This document shows, in pieces, positions 2,366-14,942 of a stretch of DNA of 35,687 nucleotides. How positions within the stretch are numbered: the first letter of the stretch is position 1; the number at the start of each line of letters is the position of its first letter. The DNA comes from Comamonadaceae bacterium (lineage in GTDB: Bacteria > Pseudomonadota > Gammaproteobacteria > Burkholderiales > Burkholderiaceae_C). The stretch spans positions 1-35,687 of the forward strand of contig JAJTGH010000008.1 in the NCBI GenBank assembly GCA_021299555.1. The letters are read 5' to 3'. A program made the translations under genes and the position numbers. Under the pieces are notes generated by a model. It was given only the letters and a program-made list of their open reading frames with translations, was not told where the DNA came from and made no database searches.

Positions 2366-3478
2366 TCAGGAGGTGGGTTGGCGGTACCGCGTCCAGGCCT
2401 GGGGTGTGGGCGTGGTGCTGGCGCCGGGTTGCTCAGGACGGCGGTAGTGACCGTCCACCACTTCGATGGGCTCTTCAAAGCAGGCGCGGATCCAGGGGAT
2501 GTATTCGAGTGCGGTGCAGGCCGTTCGGCTGAAATTGAGGTGCTGGTGAACCTGGCTCATGTCACCGGCGTGCGGGGCCACGGGCAGGCGGTGGGCTGCG
2601 GCCAGTTCGATCACACGCAGCACGTCGGTCAGGCCGGCCATGCGGGTAACGTCGGGCTGCAGCCAGGCCAGCGCCTGCTGTCCAATGAATTGGGCAAAAG
2701 CATCGACGCTGTAGAGCTGCTCGCCCAGCGCCAACGGAATCCGGGTGGCGCGGGCCAGCTGGGCATGGGCTTGCACCGCGTCGTACCACAGGGGCTCTTC
2801 GAACCAGAACACGTCGCAATCTTCGGCGGCCCGACAAAAGCGCAAGGTCTCGCTCAGGTCCCACTTGCCGTTGCCGTCGATGGCCAGCGTGATCTGGTCG
2901 CCGATGGCGCGGCGCACAGCACGCAGGCGTTGCAGATCACGCTCCACAGTGGAGCCAACCTTGATCTTGATGCCGGTGAATCCTTCGTCCACGGCCTGCT
3001 GGGCACCGCGCAGCAAGGCCTCGTCGGACAGTGAGAGCCAGCCGATGTCGGTGTTGTAGGCGCGCACCTGTTCGCGCACGGCCCCGCCGAGCAATTGCCA
3101 CAGCGGCATGCTCTGCGATTTGGCTTTCAGGTCCCACAGGGCCACATCGACCGCGGCGTGCGCCAAGGTGGTGATGCCGGCACGCCCCACCCATTGAAGG
3201 GCAGGGTGGCGTGCCAGGCGAAGCCACAGCCGCTCGGTGTCTTGCGCTTGCTGGCCGATCAACAGGGGCGCCAGGCAGGTGTCAATGCAGCGGGCGATCA
3301 GCTGGTCGCTGGGCAGGTGGGCGTGCGTGCCGGTAAAGCCGTAGCCCATGAGCCCGCCTTCGCCCGTGATGCGTGCACCGACCACGCCCCAGTGCGAGAT
3401 GCTGTGCGTGCTGTCGGCGATTTGGTTGCCGGTGACCGGGACATGCAGGATGAAGGATTCAACGTGCTCGATGCGCAT
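2366..3478 (-). CDS. Enolase-superfamily sugar-acid dehydratase (mandelate racemase/MLE family)
   Basis: A 370-residue member of the mandelate racemase subgroup, which abstracts a proton alpha to a carboxylate and usually dehydrates an acid sugar to a 2-keto-3-deoxy acid. Catalytic and metal residues are all present: KxK at K171/K173, Mg ligands D201 (with N203), E227 and E253, and base H303 in APHAGD. The start ATG 3478 follows AAGGG with good spacing. It lies 12 bases after the uxaA-type gene and 28 bases before the Ldh2-family gene, in one operon. The C-terminus carries an extra Pro/Thr-rich tail of about 20 residues with no obvious role. The substrate could be a galactarate-, fuconate-, talarate- or mandelate-like acid; sequence alone does not decide. 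Confidence 0.85.
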
Positions 3479-3490
3479 CGTAGCCCTTGC

Positions 3491-5017
3491 TCACATGACC
3501 GCGCCGACTTGCCAGGGAACAAATTCGTTTTGCCCGTAGCCGTGCCGTTCGCTCTTTGTGGGCTCGCCCGAGGCGGCCGCAAGGATCATCTGGAAGATGC
3601 GCTGACCCATTTCGGCGACGCTGACGCCCCCGTCAACGATCTGGCCGCAGTTGATGTCCATGTCCTCTTCCTGGCGCTGCCACAGGGCCGTGTTGGTGGC
3701 CAGCTTCAGGCTGGGCGAGGGCGCGCAGCCGTAGGCGCTGCCGCGCCCGGTGGTAAAGCAGATCAGGTTGGCCCCGCCGGCCACCTGACCGGTGGCGCTG
3801 ACCGGGTCGTAGCCGGGCGTGTCCATGTAGACGAAGCCGTGGGCCTTGACCGACTCGGCGTATTCATAAACCGCTTGCAGGTTGCTGGTGCCACCCTTGG
3901 CCACCGCGCCCAGCGACTTTTCCAGGATCGTGGTCAGGCCACCGGCCTTGTTGCCGGGGGAGGGGTTGTTGTTCATCTCGCCGCCGTTGGCTGCGGTGTA
4001 CTGCTCCCACCAGCGAATGCGCTCGATCAGCTTGTGCGCGATCTCGGGCTTGACCGCACGGCGTGTGAGCAGGTGCTCGGCGCCGTAAATCTCTGGGGTT
4101 TCACTGAGGATGGCGGTGCCACCGTGCGCCACCAGCAGGTCCACCGCTGCGCCCAGCGCTGGATTGGCGCTGATGCCCGAGTAGCCGTCTGAGCCGCCGC
4201 ACTGCAAGCCTATGACGATGTGCTCTGCGCTGCAGGGCTCACGCTTGACGGCGTTGGCCTGGGGCAGCATCTCGCGAATCAGGTCGATGCCCTTTTGCAC
4301 GGTCTGGCGGGTCCCGCCAGTGTCTTGAATGTTGAACACCTTGAGCGTCTGGCCTTCGCGCAAGCTGCTGTGGGCCAGCCAGGTGTTGAGCTGGTTGGCC
4401 TCGCAGCCCAGACCCACCACCACCACGCCCCAGAAGTTGGCATGGGTGGCGTAGCCGGCCAGGGTGCGCTCAAGCAGCTTGAGCCCCAGGCCATCGGTGT
4501 CCATGCCGCAGCCGGTGCCATGGGTCAGGGCGACAACGCCGTCAATGTGGGGGAAGTCGGCCAGTGCTTGTGGGTTGTTGCGTCTTGAAAAATGGTCGGC
4601 AATGGCCCGAGCTGCCGTGGCTGAGCAATTGACGCTGGAGAGCACACCGATGTAGTTGCGCGTGGCAACCCTTCCATCGGGCCGTTTGATGCCCATGAAG
4701 CTGGCCTGTTGGCGTGGGGCTTCGGGCTTGACGTCCTGGCCAATCGCGTAATCGCGCTCAAAGTTGCCTTTCTCCGCACCCATGTTGAGGTTGTGGGTGT
4801 GCACGTGCTCGCCGGGGGCGATGTCTTGGCTGGCAAAGCCAATGATCTGGTTGTAGCGGCGTACGGCCTGACCGGCGGCCAGTGGTCGCACCGCAACCTT
4901 ATGGCCTGGCGGGATCAGTCCGCGCACCCGGACCTCCTCGACCATGCTTCCGCCCAACAGTTGGCTGCGGGCGATCACCACGTCATCGGCGCTGTGCAGT
5001 CGAATGAATGCTTGCAT
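3491..5017 (-). CDS. uxaA: UxaA-family altronate dehydratase (altronate/galactarate dehydratase family)
   Basis: Iron-dependent dehydratase predicted to convert D-altronate to 2-keto-3-deoxygluconate. It is a full-length 508-residue protein (E. coli UxaA is 495, GarD 523). The N-terminal SAF domain covers about residues 1-85, with a histidine cluster at H71/H73/H75. The main domain starts near GIKRPDGRVATRN (109-121), followed by SSVNCS (127-132) and THGTGCG (165-171), then the C-terminal half with the NNNPSPGN and GGxTSNLQAVYEYA-type motifs of the family. Together with the mannitol-type reductase at the operon end this gives the reductase plus dehydratase pair of hexuronate breakdown. The hexuronate isomerase (UxaC) is not in the window. 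Galactarate dehydratase activity is the main alternative. Start ATG 5017 lies 6 bases after the dctM stop. Confidence 0.85.
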   Translation of the reverse strand: MQAFIRLHSADDVVIARSQLLGGSMVEEVRVRGLIPPGHKVAVRPLAAGQAVRRYNQIIGFASQDIAPGEHVHTHNLNMGAEKGNFERDYAIGQDVKPEAPRQQASFMGIKRPDGRVATRNYIGVLSSVNCSATAARAIADHFSRRNNPQALADFPHIDGVVALTHGTGCGMDTDGLGLKLLERTLAGYATHANFWGVVVVGLGCEANQLNTWLAHSSLREGQTLKVFNIQDTGGTRQTVQKGIDLIREMLPQANAVKREPCSAEHIVIGLQCGGSDGYSGISANPALGAAVDLLVAHGGTAILSETPEIYGAEHLLTRRAVKPEIAHKLIERIRWWEQYTAANGGEMNNNPSPGNKAGGLTTILEKSLGAVAKGGTSNLQAVYEYAESVKAHGFVYMDTPGYDPVSATGQVAGGANLICFTTGRGSAYGCAPSPSLKLATNTALWQRQEEDMDINCGQIVDGGVSVAEMGQRIFQMILAAASGEPTKSERHGYGQNEFVPWQVGAVM

Positions 5018-5023
5018 ATTCTT

Positions 5024-6418
5024 TTAAAAAACAAGTTTGGGCAACCAAAGTACCAGGGAAGGGGCATAGGTGATCACGACCAGGCTGCCCAGCAGTGGCA
5101 CCAGCCAGGGCAGGATGGCCATGGTGGTTCGCTCGACGCTCAGCTGCGCCACCCGAGCCAGCACGAACAGCACCATGCCCATGGGCGGGTGCAGCAAGCC
5201 GATCATCAGGTTGAGCACCATCACCAAGCCAAAGTGGACCAGGTCTATGCCCAGTTGCTGGCAAATCGGCACCAGGATGGGTACCAGGATGGTGATGGCT
5301 GCTGTGGGCTCCAGGAAGCAGCCCACAAAAAGCATCAGCAAGTTGGCCAGCAGCAAAAACACCCAGGGCTCTTTGGTGAACCCGAGCACCCAGCCGCTGA
5401 TGGCCGAGGTCACCCCAGTGGCGGTGAGCATCCAGCCAAAGATGCTGGCTGCAGCGACGATGAACAGCACGGTGGAGGTGGTCTCGACCGTGTCCAGACA
5501 GATCTTGATGAACATCTTCATGTGCAGGGTGCGGTACCAGAAAAATCCCAGAACCATGGCCCAGACGCAGGCCGCGATCGCCCCCTCTGTGGGAGTGAAC
5601 ACACCGGTGGTCATGCCGCCAATGAGCAGCACCGGGGTCATGATGGGCAGCACGGCCTGAAAGCCGAACAGCCGATCGGCCGCAAACAGGACCACCAGGG
5701 CAGCCGCCACCGTGGCTTGCGCGGGCCATTCCCAGTGTTTGATCATCACCCAAAGCGCAAGAGGCCAGATGATCACCACCGCTGTCTCGATCAGAGCCTT
5801 GAGCACGCGCGCACCGTCAAAACGGATGTCCGCGCCCCAGCCGTTCTTGTGTGCGAAGTAGGCCACTGTGAGCATCATGAGCAGCGCCATGATGATGCCC
5901 GGCAGGATGCCGGCCAGGAAGAGGGCGCCGACCGAGACATTGGCCATCATGCCGTAGATCACGAAGGGCAGGCTCGGAGGAATGATGGGCCCGAGCGTGG
6001 CCGATGCAGCGGTCACGCCGACGGCAAACTCCTTGCTGTAACCATGGTCGCGCATGGCCTTGATCTCGACCGTGCCCAGGCCTGCTGCGTCTGCAATGGC
6101 CGTCCCGCTCATGCCGGCGAATACGACCGACCCCACCACGTTGACATGGCCCAGCCCTCCCTTGAGCCACCCGACCAACGCCAGAGCGTAGTTGTAGATC
6201 CGGTTGGTGATGCCCGCGTTGTTCATCAGATTGCCAGCCAGGATGAAAAATGGCACTGCGAGCAAGGGAAAACTGTCGATGCCCGAGACCATGCGGTGTA
6301 TCACCACAAAGGGGGGCGAGGATTGCACGAAGAACAAGTAGATGAGCGAAGCACCGGCCATGGCAATGGCCACGGGCAGACCACCGCTCATCAGGATGAG
6401 GAATAAGATTTTGAGCAT
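5024..6418 (-). CDS. dctM: TRAP transporter large permease subunit DctM (system 1)
   Basis: A 464-residue multi-spanning inner-membrane subunit of a tripartite ATP-independent periplasmic transporter, driving ion-coupled uptake of a carboxylate substrate. Hydrophobic helices fill the whole length. Typical DctM signatures are DSFPLLAVPFFILAGNLMN near residue 50, FAGMSGTAIADAAGLG, GPIIPPSLPFVIYG, GVFTPTEGA and LLHPPMGMVLF. At 464 residues it is longer than the 427-432 residues of the other two DctM proteins here and clearly more diverged from them. The start ATG 6418 is preceded by AAAGGA. It lies 17 bases after dctQ and 6 bases before the dehydratase, so transport and catabolism are co-transcribed; the cargo is probably a hexuronate or related sugar acid. 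Confidence 0.93.
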   Translation of the reverse strand: MLKILFLILMSGGLPVAIAMAGASLIYLFFVQSSPPFVVIHRMVSGIDSFPLLAVPFFILAGNLMNNAGITNRIYNYALALVGWLKGGLGHVNVVGSVVFAGMSGTAIADAAGLGTVEIKAMRDHGYSKEFAVGVTAASATLGPIIPPSLPFVIYGMMANVSVGALFLAGILPGIIMALLMMLTVAYFAHKNGWGADIRFDGARVLKALIETAVVIIWPLALWVMIKHWEWPAQATVAAALVVLFAADRLFGFQAVLPIMTPVLLIGGMTTGVFTPTEGAIAACVWAMVLGFFWYRTLHMKMFIKICLDTVETTSTVLFIVAAASIFGWMLTATGVTSAISGWVLGFTKEPWVFLLLANLLMLFVGCFLEPTAAITILVPILVPICQQLGIDLVHFGLVMVLNLMIGLLHPPMGMVLFVLARVAQLSVERTTMAILPWLVPLLGSLVVITYAPSLVLWLPKLVF

Positions 6419-6435: not shown

Positions 6436-7011
6436 TCAGCGCTCGTTCATTTCGGAGCCAGGCCGCTCAAGCACGGTGTAGCCGCGTTGCAGATGGACGC
6501 GCATGACCCAGACCGCACGCACGCTCATGGCAGCAAAGCCGGCAAACACCACTGCGTAGACGATGTTCATTGGCAAGTCGACGATGGTCATTTTGTAGCT
6601 GCCGAGCTTTTGCATCATCTGCCAAGTCAGCACCGTGGCGGCAGCAAAGAAAGCGATCCGCATCAGGTCAACCAGCAGCGCCATGAAGCGCCCAAGGGCG
6701 CGGGGCATGAATCGGTAGAAAAAATCAACCTGAATGTGGTTGTTCCTGGCCACGCCAATGGCAGCGCCTGTAAAGACGGTTGCAATGAGCAGGTAGCGGG
6801 CGATTTCCTCGGTCCACGAGGCTGAATCGTTGAGGACGTAGCGGGTAAAGAACTGGTAGAAGACGGTCAGGCCCAGGGTCCAGAAAAACAGCAGGGCCAC
6901 CCAGGCTTCTATGGGCGTGTCCGACAGATCCACCTCTTGGTCGGTCGCGTGGAACTGACCATCGTCGCCCATGACCTTGGGCCCACTGTCGATGTCTGGC
7001 AGGGAAGTCAT
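6436..7011 (-). CDS. dctQ: TRAP transporter small permease subunit DctQ (system 1)
   Basis: A 191-residue small membrane subunit that pairs with DctM to form the TRAP permease. After a roughly 30-residue acidic cytoplasmic N-terminus there are four hydrophobic segments, including the family signature TRYVLNDSASWTEEIARYLL, where a conserved Glu pair sits before helix 2. A C-terminal basic tail follows. The start is ATG 7011 with a weak ribosome-binding site. It is separated from the upstream dctP by an 85-base gap holding a strong hairpin, so it may be expressed at a lower level than the binding protein. Confidence 0.9.
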   Translation of the reverse strand: MTSLPDIDSGPKVMGDDGQFHATDQEVDLSDTPIEAWVALLFFWTLGLTVFYQFFTRYVLNDSASWTEEIARYLLIATVFTGAAIGVARNNHIQVDFFYRFMPRALGRFMALLVDLMRIAFFAAATVLTWQMMQKLGSYKMTIVDLPMNIVYAVVFAGFAAMSVRAVWVMRVHLQRGYTVLERPGSEMNER

Positions 7012-7096: not shown

Positions 7097-8083
7097 TTAC
7101 TTGGCGGCCTGGATCTTGTCGTAGTCCGAGCGCGTGAAGCCCATGGACTCCAGCGGCTTGTTCTTCAAGACGGCGTCAACGAAGCTCTTGCGATCGACCT
7201 GGGTGATGGCCAGACCTTTCTTCTTGAACTCCTCAACCAATTCGGCTTCGCGCTTCTTGATCTGCGCGGTGGCGCGAACAGCGGCCTCTTGGGTGACGTC
7301 GGTGAAGATTTTCTTTTCCGCGTCGGTCAGTTTGTTCCAGACGTGCGGCGCGATCTGTGTGGTCAATCCGTCAACGATGTGCCCAGTGAGCATGATGGCC
7401 TTTTGCACTTCATAAAACTTCTTGGCCTCGATCGTGGTCAGCGGATTTTCCTGCGCCTCGACCGTGCCGTTTTGCAGCGCCAAGTAGACCTCTGCAAAGG
7501 CGATGGGGGTGGGATTGGCGCCGCAGGACTCGGGGGTGGCACGGTAAGCGGGCACGTCGGGCACCCGGATCTTGATGCCTTTCATGCCGGCGCAATTGGT
7601 AAAGGGCTTTTGCGCCGTGGTGTGACGAGCGCCATAGTAGGTGTAGGCGGTGATCTGAATGCCGGTTTTGGCGCGGAATTCGTTGACCATCTCCTGGAAC
7701 ACCGGGCTCTTGGAGTAGGCGATCAGGTGGTCACCGTCGCGGAAAATGAAGGGATAGTAGGCAATGCCGATGCGCGGATAGGTGCGAGCGGCAAAGGAGG
7801 GGCCGCTGATGATCATGTCCACCGTGCCCAGCGTCATGCCCTGGTTGATATCGGTCTCTTTGCCCAGCGAGGACGCGGGGAAAACCTGAATGTCAAACTT
7901 GCCGTTGGTGCGTTTCTTGATTTCACCGGCCGCCCACACCGATTCGGTGTGATACGGCTCGGAGGTCTCATACACATGCGCCCACTTGAGTTTTTGCTGG
8001 GCCTGTGCAGTGACACCGCTTAGGGTGCCCAGGGCCAGCAGGCCAATGGCTGCTGCGGCTTTGAAGGTTAGTCTCTTGCTCAT
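7097..8083 (-). CDS. dctP: TRAP transporter periplasmic substrate-binding protein DctP (system 1)
   Basis: A 328-residue periplasmic solute receptor that captures a carboxylate substrate and delivers it to DctQM. It begins with a signal peptide (MSKRLTF, a hydrophobic stretch, then a predicted cleavage after AQA). Family signatures include KWAHVYETSEPYHTES, the binding-Arg region GIKIRVPD and the conserved EVYLALQNGTVEAQENP segment. Start ATG 8083 is chosen over an upstream in-frame start at 8122 because it directly precedes the signal peptide and has a strong AAAGGAG site. It lies 54 bases after the GntR gene and before a hairpin separating it from dctQ. Operon context suggests a hexuronate/aldonate ligand; this is inference. 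Confidence 0.93.
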   Translation of the reverse strand: MSKRLTFKAAAAIGLLALGTLSGVTAQAQQKLKWAHVYETSEPYHTESVWAAGEIKKRTNGKFDIQVFPASSLGKETDINQGMTLGTVDMIISGPSFAARTYPRIGIAYYPFIFRDGDHLIAYSKSPVFQEMVNEFRAKTGIQITAYTYYGARHTTAQKPFTNCAGMKGIKIRVPDVPAYRATPESCGANPTPIAFAEVYLALQNGTVEAQENPLTTIEAKKFYEVQKAIMLTGHIVDGLTTQIAPHVWNKLTDAEKKIFTDVTQEAAVRATAQIKKREAELVEEFKKKGLAITQVDRKSFVDAVLKNKPLESMGFTRSDYDKIQAAK

Positions 8084-8137: not shown

Positions 8138-8857
8138 TCAACGGACCGGTGCGCGGCGCCAGCTCGCGCTGTATCTTTTGTGGGCCTGTCGCAGATGCCG
8201 CTGCATGGCTTTGCGTGCAGCCGGGCCATTGCCCGCTTCAATGGCCTGCAGCACCTGAACATGCTCCTCGATGGCCGTCTGCCAGGATTGCGGGTGCTCG
8301 AAATGATCGCCCAGGCGCTGAAACAAGGAGCTGTTGCGCGCCTGCCAGAAGCGATGCACCGTATCGAGCAACACGCTGTTGCCGCAGGCACTGGCAATCG
8401 CCTGGTGAAACGCTTCGTCCCCCCAGCGAGGCACTTCGCCCTGGGCGGCCTCCTGCCGCATTTTTTGCAGGGCAGCTCGTATGGTCTTGAGGTCGGTTTT
8501 GCTGGCGTTTTGAGCGGCCAGGGCGGCCACCTCGGATTCAACCAAGATGCGTGCGCTCATCACCTCAAGAGGCCCCCAGTCGGCCGGCGTGTCGGACGCG
8601 CCGGGTGCTTGCGTGACCGATCGCTGGGCCTGCTTGACGTAGATGCCCGATCCGGTTCTGACCTCGATGATGCCCTCGACCTCCAGCGCGATCAGAGCCT
8701 CGCGAACAGAGGGTCGGCTGACCCCAAGCTGTATTGCCAGATCGCGCTCGGCCGGCAGACGTGTGCCCACTTGAAATTCACCACTGGCCATCAGCTGGCG
8801 CAGCTGTTCGGCGATTTGCCGGTACAGGCGCTTGGGCTCGATCGCTTGGATGGGCAT
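8138..8857 (-). CDS. GntR/FadR-subfamily (FCD) transcriptional regulator
   Basis: A 239-residue repressor-type regulator. The N-terminal winged helix-turn-helix (about residues 10-75) contains LPAERDLAIQLGVSRPSVREAL and the wing TGSGIYVK. The C-terminal FCD ligand domain carries DEAFHQAIASACGN and EHVQVLQAI, the Asp/His metal-binding positions of FCD proteins, which often sense sugar acids or their 2-keto-3-deoxy products. The protein resembles the UxuR/ExuR type. It is first in the leftward operon and divergent from the Bug/sulfatase operon. A TGGTNNNACCA operator lies about 31 bases upstream of its start, inside the plus-strand promoter, so it probably controls both operons and itself. Confidence 0.9.
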   Translation of the reverse strand: MPIQAIEPKRLYRQIAEQLRQLMASGEFQVGTRLPAERDLAIQLGVSRPSVREALIALEVEGIIEVRTGSGIYVKQAQRSVTQAPGASDTPADWGPLEVMSARILVESEVAALAAQNASKTDLKTIRAALQKMRQEAAQGEVPRWGDEAFHQAIASACGNSVLLDTVHRFWQARNSSLFQRLGDHFEHPQSWQTAIEEHVQVLQAIEAGNGPAARKAMQRHLRQAHKRYSASWRRAPVR

Positions 8858-8879: not shown

Positions 8880-8907
8880 TGGACAGGTGGTCAGACCAAT
8901 TTATGAT
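8880..8907 (+). promoter_or_regulatory. Sigma70-type promoter of the Bug/sulfatase operon
   Basis: TGGACA at 8880-8885 (5/6 match to -35) and TATGAT at 8902-8907 (5/6 match to -10), with a 16-base spacer, 89 bases upstream of the Bug gene start. The GntR-type operator fills the spacer, which would make the promoter directly repressible. Confidence 0.65.
8888..8898. promoter_or_regulatory. FadR/UxuR-type GntR operator palindrome
   Basis: TGGTCAGACCA is a perfect TGGT-NNN-ACCA dyad, the general form bound by FadR-subfamily GntR proteins. On the minus strand it reads in an AATTGGT...ACCA context, like E. coli UxuR/ExuR sites. It lies between the -35 and -10 of the plus-strand promoter and just upstream of the regulator's own gene. 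Confidence 0.65.
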
Positions 8908-8996: not shown

Positions 8997-9980
8997 ATGC
9001 GCCTGCCGTTCAAGCATCCTGTCCAACGTTTTTGCGCATGGCTGCTGATCCTGTTGTGCTGGGTCTGTGGACCTGTGTGGGCGCAGTCTTGGCCGGCCAA
9101 GCCCGTGCGTGTGGTCGTGCCCTTCCCGCCGGGTGGGGCCTCTGATGCGCTGGCCCGCATGGTGGCCCAGAAACTCGGTGAGCAGCTCGGGCAGCCCTTT
9201 GTGGTGGAAAACAAACCCGGTGCTGCCAGCACCATCGGTATTGCTGAGGCTGCGAAGGCGCCGGCCGACGGCTATACCCTGCTTTTGGCGGCCGCGCCCT
9301 TTGTGATCACGCAGTACGTCTATCCCAAGCTGACCTACGAGGTGCGCAAAGACTTTGTGCCGGTGGGCTTGCTGCAGACCACGCCGACACTGTTGGTGGT
9401 CAACCCCCAACTGGGCGTTGGCAATGTGGCAGACTTTCTCAAGCTGGCCAAGTCCAAGCCGGGTCAGATTTCCTACGCAACGCCAGGATCGGGCAGCTTG
9501 CCCCATCTGATCGGAGAGTTGCTCAAGCTGCAGGCGGGTGTGGACTTGCTGCATGTGCCCTATAAAGGGGGAGGCCCCGCACTCGCTGATTTGCTGGCGG
9601 GCCATGCGAACAGTGCTTTTCTATCGCCCATTGAGGTCAACGCGCACATCAAGAGCGGCAAGCTGATCGCGCTGGCCGCCACTTCGGTCAAACGCAGCCC
9701 ATCCTTGGCTGGCTTGCCCACCCTGGCTGAGTCGGGGGTCTCTGACTTTGAGTCGCTGGCCTGGTTTGGGTTTGTGGCGCGTGCGGGCACACCCGGCGAT
9801 GTGCTGGCCAAGCTTTCCGAACACCTGGTGCGGGCCGTCAACAGCCCCGACATCAAGGGCAGGATTGCGCAAAGTGGAGATGTCCCCGCGGCCACGGTGC
9901 AGGAGTTTTCGGACCTTCTGGCCCGGGAGCATGTGCGCTGGGAACGCACGGTCAGGACCGCCAATATCAAGCCCGAATGA
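8997..9980 (+). CDS. Bug/TctC-family periplasmic binding protein (tripartite tricarboxylate transporter type), orphan
   Basis: A 327-residue periplasmic solute-binding protein of the Bug family, which is expanded in Burkholderiales and binds small carboxylates or related acids. It has a signal peptide with cleavage near VWAQ, then the family opening WPAKPVRVVVPFPPGGASDALAR, VENKPGAAS, ADGYTLLL, the YATPGSGSLPHL ligand loop and HVPYKGGGPALADLLAG. Start ATG 8997 follows GGAG with 7-base spacing. It is first in the plus-strand operon, and the sulfatase starts 4 bases after its stop. No TctA/TctB permease genes are nearby, so it either shares a permease encoded elsewhere or acts as a sensor. Confidence 0.92.
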   Translation: MRLPFKHPVQRFCAWLLILLCWVCGPVWAQSWPAKPVRVVVPFPPGGASDALARMVAQKLGEQLGQPFVVENKPGAASTIGIAEAAKAPADGYTLLLAAAPFVITQYVYPKLTYEVRKDFVPVGLLQTTPTLLVVNPQLGVGNVADFLKLAKSKPGQISYATPGSGSLPHLIGELLKLQAGVDLLHVPYKGGGPALADLLAGHANSAFLSPIEVNAHIKSGKLIALAATSVKRSPSLAGLPTLAESGVSDFESLAWFGFVARAGTPGDVLAKLSEHLVRAVNSPDIKGRIAQSGDVPAATVQEFSDLLAREHVRWERTVRTANIKPE

Positions 9981-9984
9981 GTCC

Positions 9985-11457
9985 ATGAAGGCCGACAGCC
10001 GTCCCAATATCCTTTGGTATTGCGCCGATCAGCAGCGCTGGGACACCATACACGCGCTGGGCAATGCCCACATACGCACCGATGCGCTTGACGCGCTGGT
10101 GGGGTCAGGGGTGGCGTTTGAGCGCGCTTACACCCAAAGCCCGATCTGCACGCCCGCCCGCGCCAGCTTTTTGACCGGGCGTTACCCGGCTTCCCACCAT
10201 GTGTATCGCAACGGCAATGCCTACTTTCCGGCCCACGAAAAGCTGGTGACCAAGCGCTTGGCCGAAGCGGGTTACGACTGCGCATTGGTGGGCAAACTCC
10301 ATCTGGCAGCGGCCAAGCACTACGAGGTTCGCACCGACGATGGCTACCGGGTTTTCCACTGGAGTCACCACCCCACACCGGACCAGGCGTTCGGCCACGA
10401 CTACGAAAACTGGCTCAAGCACGAAAAGAGGGTGGACCCGGTTGAGCTCTATGCCAACGTCAACTACTTTTGCGGGCCTGGTGTGGCCAGCGAGTACCAC
10501 CAAACCACCTGGTGCTCAGAGATGGCGATGCGCTTTATCACCGAACGCCGGGACCGGCCCTGGATGATCAGCGTCAACCCGTTTGATCCGCACGGCCCGT
10601 TTGATGCGCCGCCTGAGTATTTGAGCCGCTACAAACCGGCCGAGATGCCGCTGCCGCGTTTTCGGGAAACGGACATTGAACGCCAGCGCCAGTTTCTGGC
10701 GATTGATCAGCAGACCAAGCATGCCGAAGATCCCCGGGTGCGCAAGCAGATCATCCCTGTCAGCGCCGATGGCCACGATGCGATCGCTTCGGCCCACAAC
10801 GAGTACGACGCGCTCGAGGTCAAGGCGAACTATTACGCCATGATCGAGCAGATCGACGATCAGTTCGCCCGCATCATGCAAACCTTGCGCGACAGTGGCC
10901 AACTTGAAAACACCATCGTGGTCTATATGAGCGATCACGGTGAGATGCTTGGCGACCATGGCCTGATCCTCAAGGGCTGCCGCTTTTTTGATGGCCTGGT
11001 CAGAGTTCCCTTGATCCTGTCGTGGCCGGGTCAGTTCGCCTCGGGGCTGCGCAGTCAGGCCTTGGTAGAGACAGTGGATGTGGCGCCGACCCTGATGGAC
11101 GCCTGCGGCTTGGGCGTGCCCGAGACCATGCAGGGCAAGTCTTTGCTGGCGCTTTTGCGTGGGCAGGTTGACCCATCGTTTCACAAGCCGGCCGTGGTTT
11201 GCGAGTACCGCGACGCCATGGGCGGTCATGCCGACCACAGCCAGGCATCGATGGTGTTTGATGGGCGTTACAAGAGCGTGTTCTACCATGGGCACGAACT
11301 GGCCGAATTGTTTGATCACCAGCAAGACCCCTGTGAATACGACAACCTCTGGCTGCATGAGGGCAACGAGGCGCTCAAGTTGGCGCAGATGCGCCAGCAC
11401 ATGAATACACTGATGGCCACGGTCGACCTTGGACCGCCGCGTTTTGTCAATTATTGA
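9985..11457 (+). CDS. Type I (formylglycine) sulfatase, no signal peptide
   Basis: A 490-residue alkaline-phosphatase-superfamily enzyme predicted to hydrolyse a sulfate ester. The CxPxR maturation motif is at C55-T-P-A-R59 (CTPARASFLTGRYP); C55 must be converted to formylglycine by an enzyme not found here. Other active-site elements are D15-Q16 at the N-terminus, GKLHL (K104, H106), DPHGPF (H203), SDHGEMLGDHG (D317, H318) and K330. The N-terminus runs straight into the catalytic core (RPNILWYCADQQR) with no signal sequence, so it should act in the cytoplasm on an imported substrate. ATG 9985 is the only in-frame start near the core. Location between a binding protein and sugar-acid enzymes points to a sulfated sugar acid or sugar. 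Phosphonate monoesterase-type activity is an alternative. Confidence 0.88.
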   Translation: MKADSRPNILWYCADQQRWDTIHALGNAHIRTDALDALVGSGVAFERAYTQSPICTPARASFLTGRYPASHHVYRNGNAYFPAHEKLVTKRLAEAGYDCALVGKLHLAAAKHYEVRTDDGYRVFHWSHHPTPDQAFGHDYENWLKHEKRVDPVELYANVNYFCGPGVASEYHQTTWCSEMAMRFITERRDRPWMISVNPFDPHGPFDAPPEYLSRYKPAEMPLPRFRETDIERQRQFLAIDQQTKHAEDPRVRKQIIPVSADGHDAIASAHNEYDALEVKANYYAMIEQIDDQFARIMQTLRDSGQLENTIVVYMSDHGEMLGDHGLILKGCRFFDGLVRVPLILSWPGQFASGLRSQALVETVDVAPTLMDACGLGVPETMQGKSLLALLRGQVDPSFHKPAVVCEYRDAMGGHADHSQASMVFDGRYKSVFYHGHELAELFDHQQDPCEYDNLWLHEGNEALKLAQMRQHMNTLMATVDLGPPRFVNY

Positions 11458-11475
11458 GTTCTGGATACCCATCCT

Positions 11476-12594
11476 GTGACCCGCAGCAGCACCGTCATCG
11501 TTTCAGCCCAACTGCGCCAGGTCGATTTGCCGCCCAAAGTGGTGCGAACTGACGCCATTCAGTCTTTTGTGACACAGGAGACGGTGCTGTTGACCTTGCG
11601 CTGCAGCGATGGCCTTGAGGGCACCGGCTACGCCTACACCATAGGCACGGGTGGCTCTTCGGTGATTGCGCTGCTCAAAGACCACTTGCTGCCGCGCCTG
11701 ATCGGCCGCGACCCGGTGCACATCGAGGCCATCTGGAAGGACCTTTTTTTTCACACCCATGCCACCGCGGTGGGCGCCATCACCAGTTTGGCCCTGGCTT
11801 GCGTGGACACAGCCCTGTGGGATTGGCGTGCCCGCAGTCAGAATCTGCCGCTCTGGAAATTGCTTGGCGGGGCGCAACCGAAGGTGCCGCTTTATACGAC
11901 CGAGGGTGGGTGGCTGCATTTGTCGCCGCAGGAGCTGGTGGAGCAGGCCTTGCAGGCTCGTGAACAGGGTTTCAAGGGCGCCAAGATGAAAATTGGCCGA
12001 CCGCATGTGAGCCAGGACGTGGCCCGGCTGAGCGCTGTGCGCGATGCGGTGGGGCCGGCCTTTGATCTGATGACCGATGCCAATCAGGGCCTGAGCCGGC
12101 CCGAGGCGGTCAGACGGGCGCGGGCCTTCGACGGACTGGACCTGTCATGGATCGAAGAGCCCCTGCCGGCCGAGGATGTATCGGGCCACCGGCATTTGCG
12201 CGCAAGCACGGCCATACCGGTGGCGGTGGGCGAGTCCATGTACCACCCGATGCAGTTTCGCGAGTACCTGGAGCAAGGCGCCTGCTCCATCGTGCAACCC
12301 GATGTGGCGCGCATCGGCGGCATCACGCCCTGGATCAAGACGGCCCATCTGGCCGAAACCTTCGACATCCCCGTGTGCCCGCATTTCCTGATGGAATTGC
12401 ATGTCAGCCTGTGCGCTGCCGTGCCCAATGCGCCCTGGGTCGAATACATTCCGCAGCTCGATGACATCACGCTCACCGGGATGCGGGTGGAAGATGGGTA
12501 TGCGATCCCGTCCAACGAACCCGGGCTGGGAATCGCCTGGGATGACAAAGCCATAAAGGCAAGACAATCCGTTCATTTGGAGATCAAGACATGA
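11476..12594 (+). CDS. Enolase-superfamily acid-sugar dehydratase (mandelate racemase family; L-fuconate/talarate type)
   Basis: A 372-residue mandelate racemase-subgroup enzyme, probably dehydrating an aldonate or aldarate to its 2-keto-3-deoxy product. KxK (K170/K172), D201-x-N203, E227/E228, E253 in GES and H303 in CPHF are all present, at almost the same positions as in the dehydratase at 2366-3478. It starts with GTG 11476, 18 bases after the sulfatase, with a poor ribosome-binding site. Its stop overlaps the next gene as ATGA. Because the following genes are 2-keto-3-deoxy dehydrogenase- and 2,4-diketo hydrolase-like, an L-fuconate- or L-rhamnonate-type substrate fits best. It is shorter than the roughly 440-residue characterised L-fuconate dehydratases, so talarate/galactarate dehydratase remains possible. 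Confidence 0.85.
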   Translation: MTRSSTVIVSAQLRQVDLPPKVVRTDAIQSFVTQETVLLTLRCSDGLEGTGYAYTIGTGGSSVIALLKDHLLPRLIGRDPVHIEAIWKDLFFHTHATAVGAITSLALACVDTALWDWRARSQNLPLWKLLGGAQPKVPLYTTEGGWLHLSPQELVEQALQAREQGFKGAKMKIGRPHVSQDVARLSAVRDAVGPAFDLMTDANQGLSRPEAVRRARAFDGLDLSWIEEPLPAEDVSGHRHLRASTAIPVAVGESMYHPMQFREYLEQGACSIVQPDVARIGGITPWIKTAHLAETFDIPVCPHFLMELHVSLCAAVPNAPWVEYIPQLDDITLTGMRVEDGYAIPSNEPGLGIAWDDKAIKARQSVHLEIKT

Positions 12595-13324
12595 AACGAC
12601 TCGAAGGCAAGACGATTTTACGGCAGCCGGTGCGGGGATAGGGCGTGCCAGCGTGCTGGCCATGGCGGCCGAGGGCGCCAGGGTCTGGGCCACCGATGTC
12701 AATGGCAAGCTGTTGCAATCGCTGGCGGGCACGCCGGGTGTGGAAACCGCGGTGCTCGACGTGCTGGACAAGTCGGCCATTGCGGCCATGGCGGCCCGGG
12801 TGGGCGCGATCGACGTGCTGTTCAATTGCACCGGTTTCGTGCACAGCGACACGGCGCTCAAGGCCACGGACGAGGATCTGGACTTCGCCTTCAGGCTCAA
12901 CGTGCGCTCGCATCTGCACATGATCCAGGCGACCTTGCCGGGCATGATTGCCAAGGGTGGCGGCAGCATCATCAACATGGCCAGCGTGGCCTCCAGCGTG
13001 CGCGGTATTGTCAGCCGATGCGTCTATGGCACCACCAAGGCGGCGGTGATTGGTTTGACCAAGAGCGTTGCTGCCGACTACGTGGGGCAGGGGGTGCGCT
13101 GCAATGCCATCTGCCCGGGTACCGTGGATACGCCCTCGCTGGCCGATCGCATCAATGCCCACGACGATCCGGTGGCTGCGCGCAAGGCCTTCGTCGCCCG
13201 CCAGCCCATGGGACGCATCGCGCAGGCCGATGAAATCGCCCCCATCCTGGTGTTTCTGGCCAGCGACGAGTCGCGCTTTGTCACGGGCCAGGCCTATTCC
13301 ATCGACGGTGGTATGACCATATGA
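12591..13324 (+). pseudogene. SDR dehydrogenase (2-keto-3-deoxy-L-fuconate dehydrogenase-like), one-base frameshift near the start
   Basis: A short-chain dehydrogenase whose N-terminus is out of frame with the rest. ATG 12591 encodes MKRLEGKTI, then the frame meets TAG at 12639-12641. One extra base next to the T-run at 12616-12619 would restore the cofactor motif TAAGAGIGRA and give about 244 residues. Downstream the protein is intact: Asp after beta-2 (WATDVNG) favouring NAD, NCTG in place of NNAG, the catalytic Ser, YGTTK (Tyr at 13025-13027), and a normal C-terminus whose stop overlaps the next ATG. The start overlaps the upstream stop as ATGA. GTG 12653 would give a 223-residue protein without the nucleotide-binding loop, probably inactive. 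It is either a real mutation or a homopolymer sequencing error. Confidence 0.8.
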
Positions 13325-14058
13325 ACCAGCTCGACATGCAAGGCCGCCACGCGGTGATCACCGGCGGTGCGGCCGGCCTGGGTCTGGCCATCGCCCAGCG
13401 CATGCTGGCCTCGGGAGCCCGCGTGACCCTGTGGGACCGTGATCGCGCCGCGCTCGATGCTGCGTGCGCGCTGCTCGGACCCAACTCGCGCGCCGTGGTG
13501 GTGGATGTCTCGCGCCATGACAGTGTGGTGCAGGCTCTGGCCCAAACCACGAAACCGGTCCATGCCCTGGTCAACAGCGCTGGCATCACGGGTCCCAACA
13601 CCACGGTCTGGAACTACCCGGTGGCAGACTGGGAACAGGTGATGCAGGTCAATGTCAACGGCACGTTTTTTTGTTGCCGGGAAATATCCGCCCTGATGCG
13701 CGAGCAGGGCTGGGGACGCATTGTCAACATTGCCTCGGTGGCTGGGAAAGACGGCAATCCGAATGCAAGTGCCTACAGCGCGAGCAAGGCGGCTGTGATC
13801 GGATTGACCAAGTCGCTGGGTAAGGAGTTGGCCAGCACCGGTGTGCGGGTCAATTGCGTCACGCCGGCGGCAGTCAAGACCGCGATATTCGACCAGATGA
13901 CGCCGGCCCACATCGAATTCATGCTCTCCAAGATCCCGATGGGGCGTTTTGGTCAGCCTGAGGAAATCGCTGCAATGGTCACCTGGCTGTGCACAGATGA
14001 CTGTTCGTTTTCAACCGGCGCCGTATTCGACCTCTCGGGCGGTCGCTCCACCTATTGA
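13321..14058 (+). CDS. SDR-family NAD-dependent dehydrogenase (sugar or sugar-acid dehydrogenase)
   Basis: A 245-residue classical short-chain dehydrogenase. The Rossmann loop TGGAAGLG covers residues 14-21, Asp39 after beta-2 (LWDRD) indicates NAD over NADP, NSAG is present, and the Ser139 / Y152-SAS-K156 catalytic set is intact. The length is typical. The start overlaps the previous stop as ATGA, so expression is coupled. Candidates are oxidation of the sugar to its lactone (L-fucose dehydrogenase-like) or of the 2-keto-3-deoxy acid, in which case it might substitute for the frameshifted SDR upstream. The substrate cannot be read from sequence. Confidence 0.85.
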   Translation: MNQLDMQGRHAVITGGAAGLGLAIAQRMLASGARVTLWDRDRAALDAACALLGPNSRAVVVDVSRHDSVVQALAQTTKPVHALVNSAGITGPNTTVWNYPVADWEQVMQVNVNGTFFCCREISALMREQGWGRIVNIASVAGKDGNPNASAYSASKAAVIGLTKSLGKELASTGVRVNCVTPAAVKTAIFDQMTPAHIEFMLSKIPMGRFGQPEEIAAMVTWLCTDDCSFSTGAVFDLSGGRSTY

Positions 14059-14078
14059 TTTGAAACTGAAAGGACCCC

Positions 14079-14942
14079 ATGAAACTCGTACGCTATGGCC
14101 AAGTTGGCAAAGAAAAGCCCGGTCTGATTGACGCCCAAGGCCGCTTGCGCGATCTCAGTGGCGTGATCGCAGACATCACTCCCGATATGCTCTCGGACAA
14201 GGCCTTGGCCAAGCTGGCAAAGATCAAGACAGACAGCCTGCCGCTGGTGCGTGGCAAAAAGCGCATGGGCGCGCCGGTTGCTGGCAGCCGCAAGTTTGTG
14301 GCCATCGGTCTGAACTATGCCGACCACGCCGCTGAATCGGGCTTGCCGATTCCCAAAGAGCCCATCATCTTCATGAAGGCGTTGAGCTGCATTCAGGGCC
14401 CGGACGATGACGTCATGCTGCCGCGCGGCTCCAAGAAATCCGATTGGGAGGTGGAGCTCGGTGTGGTGATTGGCACGCGCGCCCGCTATGTCAGTCAGAA
14501 AGACGCACTCGATCATGTGGCTGGCTATTGCGTGATCAATGATGTGAGCGAGCGTGAATACCAGATCGAGCGTGGCGGCACCTGGGACAAGGGCAAGTGC
14601 TGCGATACGTTTGGCCCGATCGGTCCCTGGCTGGTCACCCGTGACGAGTTGCCCAACCCGCAGAACCTGGCCATGTGGCTCGATCTCAACGGGCAGCGCA
14701 TGCAAACCGGTTCAACCAAGACCATGATTTTTGGCGTGGCCAAAATCGTCAGCTATGTCAGCCAGTTCATGACGCTCGAGCCCGGTGACATCATCACCAC
14801 CGGCACGCCTCCCGGGGTGGGCATGGGCATCAAGAAGGACGGCAAGAGCGCCCCGGTCTTTCTCAAGCGCGGCGACGTGATGACCCTGGGCATCGAGGGC
14901 CTGGGTGAGCAGCGTCAGAAGGTCGTGGCCTTCAAGGCCTGA
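14079..14942 (+). CDS. Fumarylacetoacetate hydrolase-family protein (2,4-diketo-3-deoxy-L-fuconate/rhamnonate hydrolase-like)
   Basis: A 287-residue FAH-fold hydrolase. In the non-phosphorylating L-fucose and L-rhamnose routes, a protein of this family cleaves the 2,4-diketo-3-deoxy acid to pyruvate and L-lactate. The active-site His is in NYADHAAE (H83). Metal ligands E124 and E126 sit in DWEVELG and D155 in INDVSERE. GDIITTGTPPGVGMG is the family C-terminal signature. Start ATG 14079 is preceded by AAAGGA. It is the last gene of the plus-strand operon, ending 9 bases before the convergent aldolase gene with a hairpin just downstream. Acylpyruvase or ureidoglycolate lyase-like activity is possible, but dehydratase plus SDR neighbours favour the diketo-acid hydrolase. 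Confidence 0.88.
   Translation: MKLVRYGQVGKEKPGLIDAQGRLRDLSGVIADITPDMLSDKALAKLAKIKTDSLPLVRGKKRMGAPVAGSRKFVAIGLNYADHAAESGLPIPKEPIIFMKALSCIQGPDDDVMLPRGSKKSDWEVELGVVIGTRARYVSQKDALDHVAGYCVINDVSEREYQIERGGTWDKGKCCDTFGPIGPWLVTRDELPNPQNLAMWLDLNGQRMQTGSTKTMIFGVAKIVSYVSQFMTLEPGDIITTGTPPGVGMGIKKDGKSAPVFLKRGDVMTLGIEGLGEQRQKVVAFKA

Follow-up and report, generated by a model that had tools for sequence, protein, structure and literature searches.

A Bug–sulfatase gene pair behind the GntR operator of a common sugar-acid unit in Comamonadaceae may widen the unit to a sulfated substrate

The locus described here lies at positions 8997–14942 of a 35,687-nucleotide stretch of DNA from a freshwater Comamonadaceae bacterium (contig JAJTGH010000008.1, hereafter "the window"; G000:C214 in our genome set, from a bin of 2.97 Mb that is 82.85% complete). 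Six genes were confirmed there, encoding a Bug/TctC periplasmic binding protein, a predicted formylglycine-type sulfatase, an enolase-superfamily protein (Deh), two short-chain dehydrogenases (SDR1 and SDR2) and an FAH-family hydrolase; all lie on the plus strand, neighbouring genes being 4, 18 or 20 bases apart or, twice, overlapping by 4 bases, in line with the packed operon claimed in a preliminary description made from the sequence alone. We propose, with moderate confidence, that the locus is a GntR-controlled, non-phosphorylating unit for 6-deoxy sugar acids that has been widened to a sulfated substrate by the addition of the first two genes, Bug (8997–9980) and the sulfatase (9985–11457), in Rhodoferax-like Comamonadaceae. 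The most economical reading, and the most likely one, is that this sulfatase would act on the sulfated form of the operon's own acid, a substrate that we infer.

The distinction between an added pair and a common unit comes from relatives that lack the sulfatase. The same 149 relatives were searched for each gene with its own E-value limit, and the sulfatase was found in 6 of them, Deh in 21, SDR1 in 68 and FAH in 89. Thirty-four loci were then fetched from these matches, i.e. from relatives and regions chosen by match and not at random, and annotated with a home-made gene scorer that is rough in high-GC genomes and places some starts too far upstream; two of these loci (L174 and L182) belong to sulfatase-bearing genomes, leaving 32 sulfatase-minus loci. 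In 24 of the 32, Deh (12 loci) or, where Deh is lacking, SDR1 (12 loci) stands directly opposite the GntR gene and no sulfatase is present; three genes separate GntR from SDR1 in L195, and the remaining seven represent other contexts. Across the 25 unit-bearing loci, FAH was found in 25, DctP in 24, and UxaA and SDR2 in 22 each, the three stretches without UxaA ending too early to show it. Given these counts, the common unit comprises the divergent operon that had been described as "hexuronate" together with (Deh)–SDR1–SDR2–FAH: a GntR regulator, a divergent TRAP transporter and UxaA-type dehydratase, and the facing sugar-acid genes. In the window, this divergent side is on the minus strand and includes the ExuR/UxuR-like GntR/FCD regulator (8138–8857; scores below the ExuR/UxuR cut-offs), the TRAP binding protein DctP (7097–8083), the small and large TRAP permeases DctQ (6436–7011) and DctM (5024–6418), all three named by reading the sequence and from their neighbours without a profile, and a UxaA/galactarate-dehydratase-family protein (3491–5017) that is the probable dehydratase of the common unit.

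The Bug–sulfatase pair occupies a fixed position within this unit. A scan of GTDB genomes yielded 63 loci with sulfatase relatives; in a sample of 399 genomes drawn from across the order, four carried a close sulfatase. Of the 63 loci, 15 derive from 13 Comamonadaceae genomes (two of them split over two contigs), in which Bug–sulfatase adjoins GntR, and 14 genomes including that of the window carry the pair between the GntR operator-promoter and either Deh or SDR1. In 13 of the 15 Comamonadaceae locus records Bug directly precedes the sulfatase, an adjacency beyond what chance would give, and the other two records are cut by contig ends. Behind the sulfatase, SDR1 is found in all 12 readable genomes, preceded by Deh in seven and following directly, with Deh missing, in five. 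Conservation of gene order thus holds for the position of the pair and not for the whole operon, since the full six-gene order is seen in four of the 12 readable genomes (the window, L043, L044 and the genome of L052/L105).

The switch shared by both layers is a promoter-like site, TGGACA-16-TATGAT (8880–8907, plus strand), with a GntR-type operator, TGGTCAGACCA (8888–8898), inside its spacer, identified by scan and conservation. This is the single promoter-like site between 8500 and 15100, where shuffled sequences give 1.5, so that its weight comes from conservation and not from the scan. The operator-promoter element is also present in relatives both with and without the sulfatase, and the operator precedes Bug in 13 of the 14 pair-bearing genomes (one base differs in L047 and in L062, and Ns fill this place in L050). 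Related half-sites were also seen, by eye, before the first gene facing GntR in 10 printed Rubrivivax-like or Roseomonas-like loci. A search for a second operator copy in the window returned none that was convincing (three matches against 1.06 expected, with 6 of 100 shuffles giving as many). The earlier proposal of a co-controlled divergent operon stands with respect to one GntR operator-promoter, and changes in that the divergent operon is the common partner and Bug–sulfatase the added part.

One genome bin (G033) captures both states of the locus: its contig C92 (L071) reads GntR–operator–Bug–sulfatase, and its contig C97 (L174) passes from the operator straight to Deh. The two contigs (L174 9780–9900 and L071 7999–8122) share 121 identical bases ending at the operator, and then diverge. 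The simplest reading is strain variation for Bug–sulfatase; alternatively, one genome may contain both loci, or the bin may mix strains. On a tree of SDR1 (13 rows with the pair and 25 without), presence of the pair requires four changes, of which well-supported branches force three, and a single clade with 100/100 support unites the 14 Comamonadaceae sulfatases. A single gain followed by several losses, or transfer into the same site, would fit this pattern. The near-constant 86–91% identity of the Comamonadaceae sulfatases suggested that the pair had recently spread by horizontal transfer inside the genus; this idea is not supported, since the window's group stays together in the sulfatase tree and the genes compared are close to saturation at fourfold-degenerate sites. 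Separately, three sulfatase-minus loci (L185, L189 and L191) encode a different Bug protein, 29–34% identical, on the opposite side, between GntR and DctP, and the unit thus seems to recruit binding proteins repeatedly.

The second gene of the pair is predicted to be a formylglycine-type sulfatase on the basis of its catalytic residues. Its start is the ATG at 9985, conserved in the family (the mechanical open reading frame opens at 9748), and the protein scores 167.9 bits against the Pfam Sulfatase profile; its AlphaFold model (pLDDT 88.5) has a sulfatase as its top Foldseek match. Residues C55, P57 and R59 (C55-T-P-A-R59) of the C/S-x-P/A-x-R motif are invariant in 32 of 32 aligned members, as are D15, Q16, H106, H203, D317, H318 and K330, with K104 conserved in 31; we take these eight further residues to be those of the metal and sulfate sites. 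The protein is also predicted to be cytoplasmic and to lack a signal peptide: the hydrophobicity of its first stretch is 0.86, against 2.24 for the hydrophobic N-terminus of Bug, no strongly hydrophobic segment is present, and in the listed family members the conserved N-terminal motif follows a methionine by only a few residues. The formylglycine-type active site and the missing signal peptide of the preliminary description are thus both supported. Choline sulfatase was considered and rejected (198.3 bits for an equivalog model with a cut-off of 433.45).

Among the downstream genes, SDR1 (12591–13324) and FAH (14079–14942) are assigned by family to the non-phosphorylating acid route of L-fucose and L-rhamnose. 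The nearest solved structure to FAH is L-2,4-diketo-3-deoxyrhamnonate hydrolase (8gsr, 4.8e-104), well ahead of the next match (1.1e-58), and its score of 483.6 bits falls just under the NCBIfam cut-off of 500. For SDR1, the nearest solved structures are human DHRS6/BDH2 and the L-2-keto-3-deoxyfuconate (L-KDF) 4-dehydrogenase of Herbaspirillum huttiense, and it carries a methionine at the position equivalent to Trp252, a residue listed among those common there in the available portion of PMC11199699. The same portion describes a route from L-KDF to the 2,4-diketo acid and on to pyruvate and L-lactate. SDR2 (13321–14058) is a FabG-like short-chain dehydrogenase from profile searches, and Deh (11476–12594), a mandelate-racemase-group protein, is a probable acid-sugar dehydratase whose best solved relatives are 3,6-anhydro-L-galactonate cycloisomerase (8.6e-72) and then talarate/galactarate dehydratase. 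The title of one reference reportedly ties the UxaA-type family to L-fucose and sugar-acid pathways. Under the proposed scheme, Bug and a TctAB permease encoded elsewhere would import a sulfated acid of the L-fuconate or L-rhamnonate type, and the sulfatase would strip the sulfate in the cytoplasm. The UxaA-type enzyme, Deh or both would dehydrate the freed acid, SDR1 (or SDR2) would oxidise it at C4, and FAH would cleave the product to pyruvate and L-lactate, with an acid of the pathway releasing GntR. In favour of a sugar-acid substrate, five distant loci (L080, L084, L085, L090 and L099) have enolase-superfamily genes no more than 10 kb from the sulfatase, on the other strand in L090 and L099, a frequency that comes with no computed chance level.

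Several observations weigh against this scheme. Deh is not fuconate-dehydratase-like by sequence: L-fuconate dehydratase matches at about 1e-35 and the L-rhamnonate dehydratase model gives 119 bits against 393. Deh thus fails, on scores, as the enolase-superfamily L-fuconate/L-rhamnonate dehydratase, a UxaA-type dehydratase standing opposite, and of the match first drawn to the L-fuconate/L-rhamnonate enzymes, SDR1 and FAH are retained through their solved relatives and Deh is not. The window's own SDR1 is frameshifted by a short deletion near the N-terminus (12591–12660) in this assembly, which may be a true mutation or an assembly fault, relatives having intact copies. SDR2–FAH comes next in 6 of the 12 readable sulfatase-bearing loci and is missing from the operon in the other 6. 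The operon holds no identified TctAB gene, its Bug belonging to the TctC family and TctA being encoded elsewhere in the genome. Finally, the pairing extends beyond Comamonadaceae: in 8 of 9 loci from other Burkholderiales and in 8 of 8 from Roseomonadaceae the gene directly before the sulfatase is Bug, though this holds for none of 31 more distant loci. The neighbours recognised beside these GntR–Bug–sulfatase sets are additional sulfatase and Bug genes, and none of the window's sugar-acid genes turned up there, which, taken over the whole family, speaks most strongly against a substrate of the sugar-acid type.

Maturation of the enzyme adds to these difficulties. Canonical formylglycine-generating enzyme (FGE) was not found in the window's bin or in four close sulfatase-bearing bins (G077, G053, G021 and G033), and because all five are incomplete (66–90%) its absence is likely and not proved. 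The two FGE-domain proteins of the window's bin are an EgtB-like protein and an exported-looking one without the Cys pair, and the other four bins hold one or both of the same kinds of match, the Cys pair being absent from all those read. Across 29 sulfatase-bearing genomes searched, 27 have an FGE-domain match and 18, including that of L050, show the canonical Cys pair among their higher-ranked matches; the check for an FGE gene thus came out negative in the window's group and positive in much of the wider set. Canonical FGE is present in G017, and in the L047/G017 (L031/L216) and L051 (L214) genomes it carries a hydrophobic N-terminal stretch suggestive of a periplasmic location, which would not account for how a cytoplasmic sulfatase is matured. 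In six genomes, no match to a radical-SAM maturase reached the cut-off. Cys-type sulfatases reportedly mature in E. coli through a system yet to be identified (PMC6189696, in the part available), and for that reason a missing canonical maturase does not refute a sulfatase. Elsewhere in the family, an FGE gene (L068:13914–14879; PF03781, 251 bits) stands just behind the Falsiroseomonas sulfatases, with members in L069, L070 and, on the other strand, L066. We regard as rather unlikely the full combination of a dedicated sulfated 6-deoxy-aldonate route (intact uptake, cytoplasmic desulfation, and a two-gene cassette gained and lost behind one operator) with maturation lacking both a canonical FGE and a radical-SAM maturase in the window's group.

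The wider family context also opens a different view, in which the pair would serve organosulfate scavenging, taking up and cleaving some other small carboxylated sulfate ester mainly for its sulfur and borrowing the operon's promoter. This alternative is conceivable if somewhat unlikely. The Rubrivivax-like and Roseomonas-like pairs stand with more sulfatases and Bug genes, and in Falsiroseomonas also with an FGE gene, and a TauD-like dioxygenase gene is found a few genes downstream in L063; however, in 14 genomes the pair goes with one and the same sugar-acid unit and the GntR operator of that unit, a strange way to control sulfur supply. As a side observation, six loci (L054, L056, L058, L059, L067 and L072) group multiple sulfatase genes, among them a conserved type of 740 residues, with several Bug genes, and possibly represent wider organosulfate-uptake loci.

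Another possibility is that the sulfatase acts on a sulfated sugar instead of the acid (sulfated L-fucose or L-rhamnose, for instance); once freed, the sugar would be oxidised by SDR2 to a lactone feeding the same route. A second dehydrogenase, SDR2, is indeed encoded in the operon, and distant relatives of the sulfatase lie near sugar-type ABC importers, L093 also encoding an FGGY kinase and a xylose-isomerase-like protein. More broadly, an ABC-importer subunit was found on the same strand within 6 kb in 6 of the 31 distant loci, the annotated ones being of sugar type in L093 and peptide type in L098; this frequency, too, comes with no computed chance level. TRAP and Bug proteins, on the other hand, mostly take carboxylates. 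Profile searches also revealed no lactonase, and no sugar dehydrogenase was identified, among the six genes, and SDR2 is itself absent from the operon in half of the readable loci, so that we consider a sulfated sugar quite improbable as the substrate. Finally, a role as phosphonate monoester hydrolase or phosphodiesterase is very improbable for the enzyme: Foldseek ranks 2vqr and 4uph next to the sulfatases, the model resembling both classes about equally so that fold alone is undecisive, and the sequence-profile scores of 2w8s and 2vqr are not far below those of the best sulfatases, but K104 (31/32) and H106 (32/32) match the Lys/His pair of the SpAS1, SpAS2 and S1_46 sulfatases, which phosphonate monoester hydrolases replace by Tyr/Thr, as does 2w8s in the printed alignment. 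On this comparison, which had been put forward at the start as a way to overturn the sulfatase assignment, active-site residues reject the phosphonate hydrolase and fold scores do not separate the two.

Returning to the proposed widening of a sugar-acid unit, we found no published account of this arrangement in the open-licence literature, and its parts resemble several known systems. The closest are route 3 of L-fucose degradation (FucC–FucF–FucG) in Herbaspirillum huttiense, as far as the accessible text of PMC11199699 describes it, and LRA5–LRA6 for L-rhamnose, SDR1 being FucF-like and FAH LRA6/FucG-like by sequence. Relative to route 3, the window adds Bug and the sulfatase, has a Deh that is not FucC-like and a TRAP transporter and UxaA-type dehydratase opposite, and its six genes hold no identified sugar dehydrogenase or lactonase. 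The principle of desulfating an imported sulfated monosaccharide inside the cell is not new, since Bifidobacterium breve UCC2003 uses intracellular sulfatases for GlcNAc-6-sulfate (Egan et al., as cited in the part of PMC7326374 at hand), although with another sugar, host and catabolic route. Choline-O-sulfatase (BetC) is of similar size, fold and formylglycine type, but the window sulfatase is far under its model cut-off and no betaine genes are among the named genes of the window. The arylsulfatases SpAS1 and SpAS2 and the S1_46 enzyme BT1918 are the nearest solved structures and share the Lys/His pair, at only ~26–27% identity. The acesulfame sulfatase of Shinella is likewise formylglycine-dependent and its gene adjoins that for the next breakdown step, yet it differs in its xenobiotic substrate, plasmid location and other neighbours (PMC11500405, from partial text). 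Sulfatases are treated generally for Desulfatiglans in PMC6129605 and for polysaccharide loci in PMC8857213, and the excerpts of both describe no cytoplasmic desulfation of sugar acids.

The remainder of the window (1–35687) is likewise a sugar-acid island. The divergent unit continues on the minus strand with a second enolase-superfamily dehydratase (2366–3478), which has relatives in L071 and L105, and a malate/lactate/ureidoglycolate-type dehydrogenase (1294–2337), a candidate for oxidising the L-lactate product. Other island genes encode a mannitol/fructuronate-type dehydrogenase, KDG kinase, KDPGal aldolase, D-erythronate dehydrogenase, dihydroxy-acid-type and galactonate-type dehydratases, 6-phosphogluconate and idonate-type dehydrogenases, two more TRAP systems, a further GntR/FCD regulator and a LacI-type GntR.

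Sulfated methyl pentoses have been called hard for bacteria to degrade (PMC8857213, in the excerpt available). If the proposed function is correct, a transport and desulfation pair plugged into a common operon would show how ordinary freshwater bacteria could reach sulfated carbon, and nature already offers test cases in relatives with and without the pair. That FGE is apparently lacking in the window's group is also relevant to the as yet unidentified system reported to mature sulfatases in E. coli (PMC6189696, as described in the part available).

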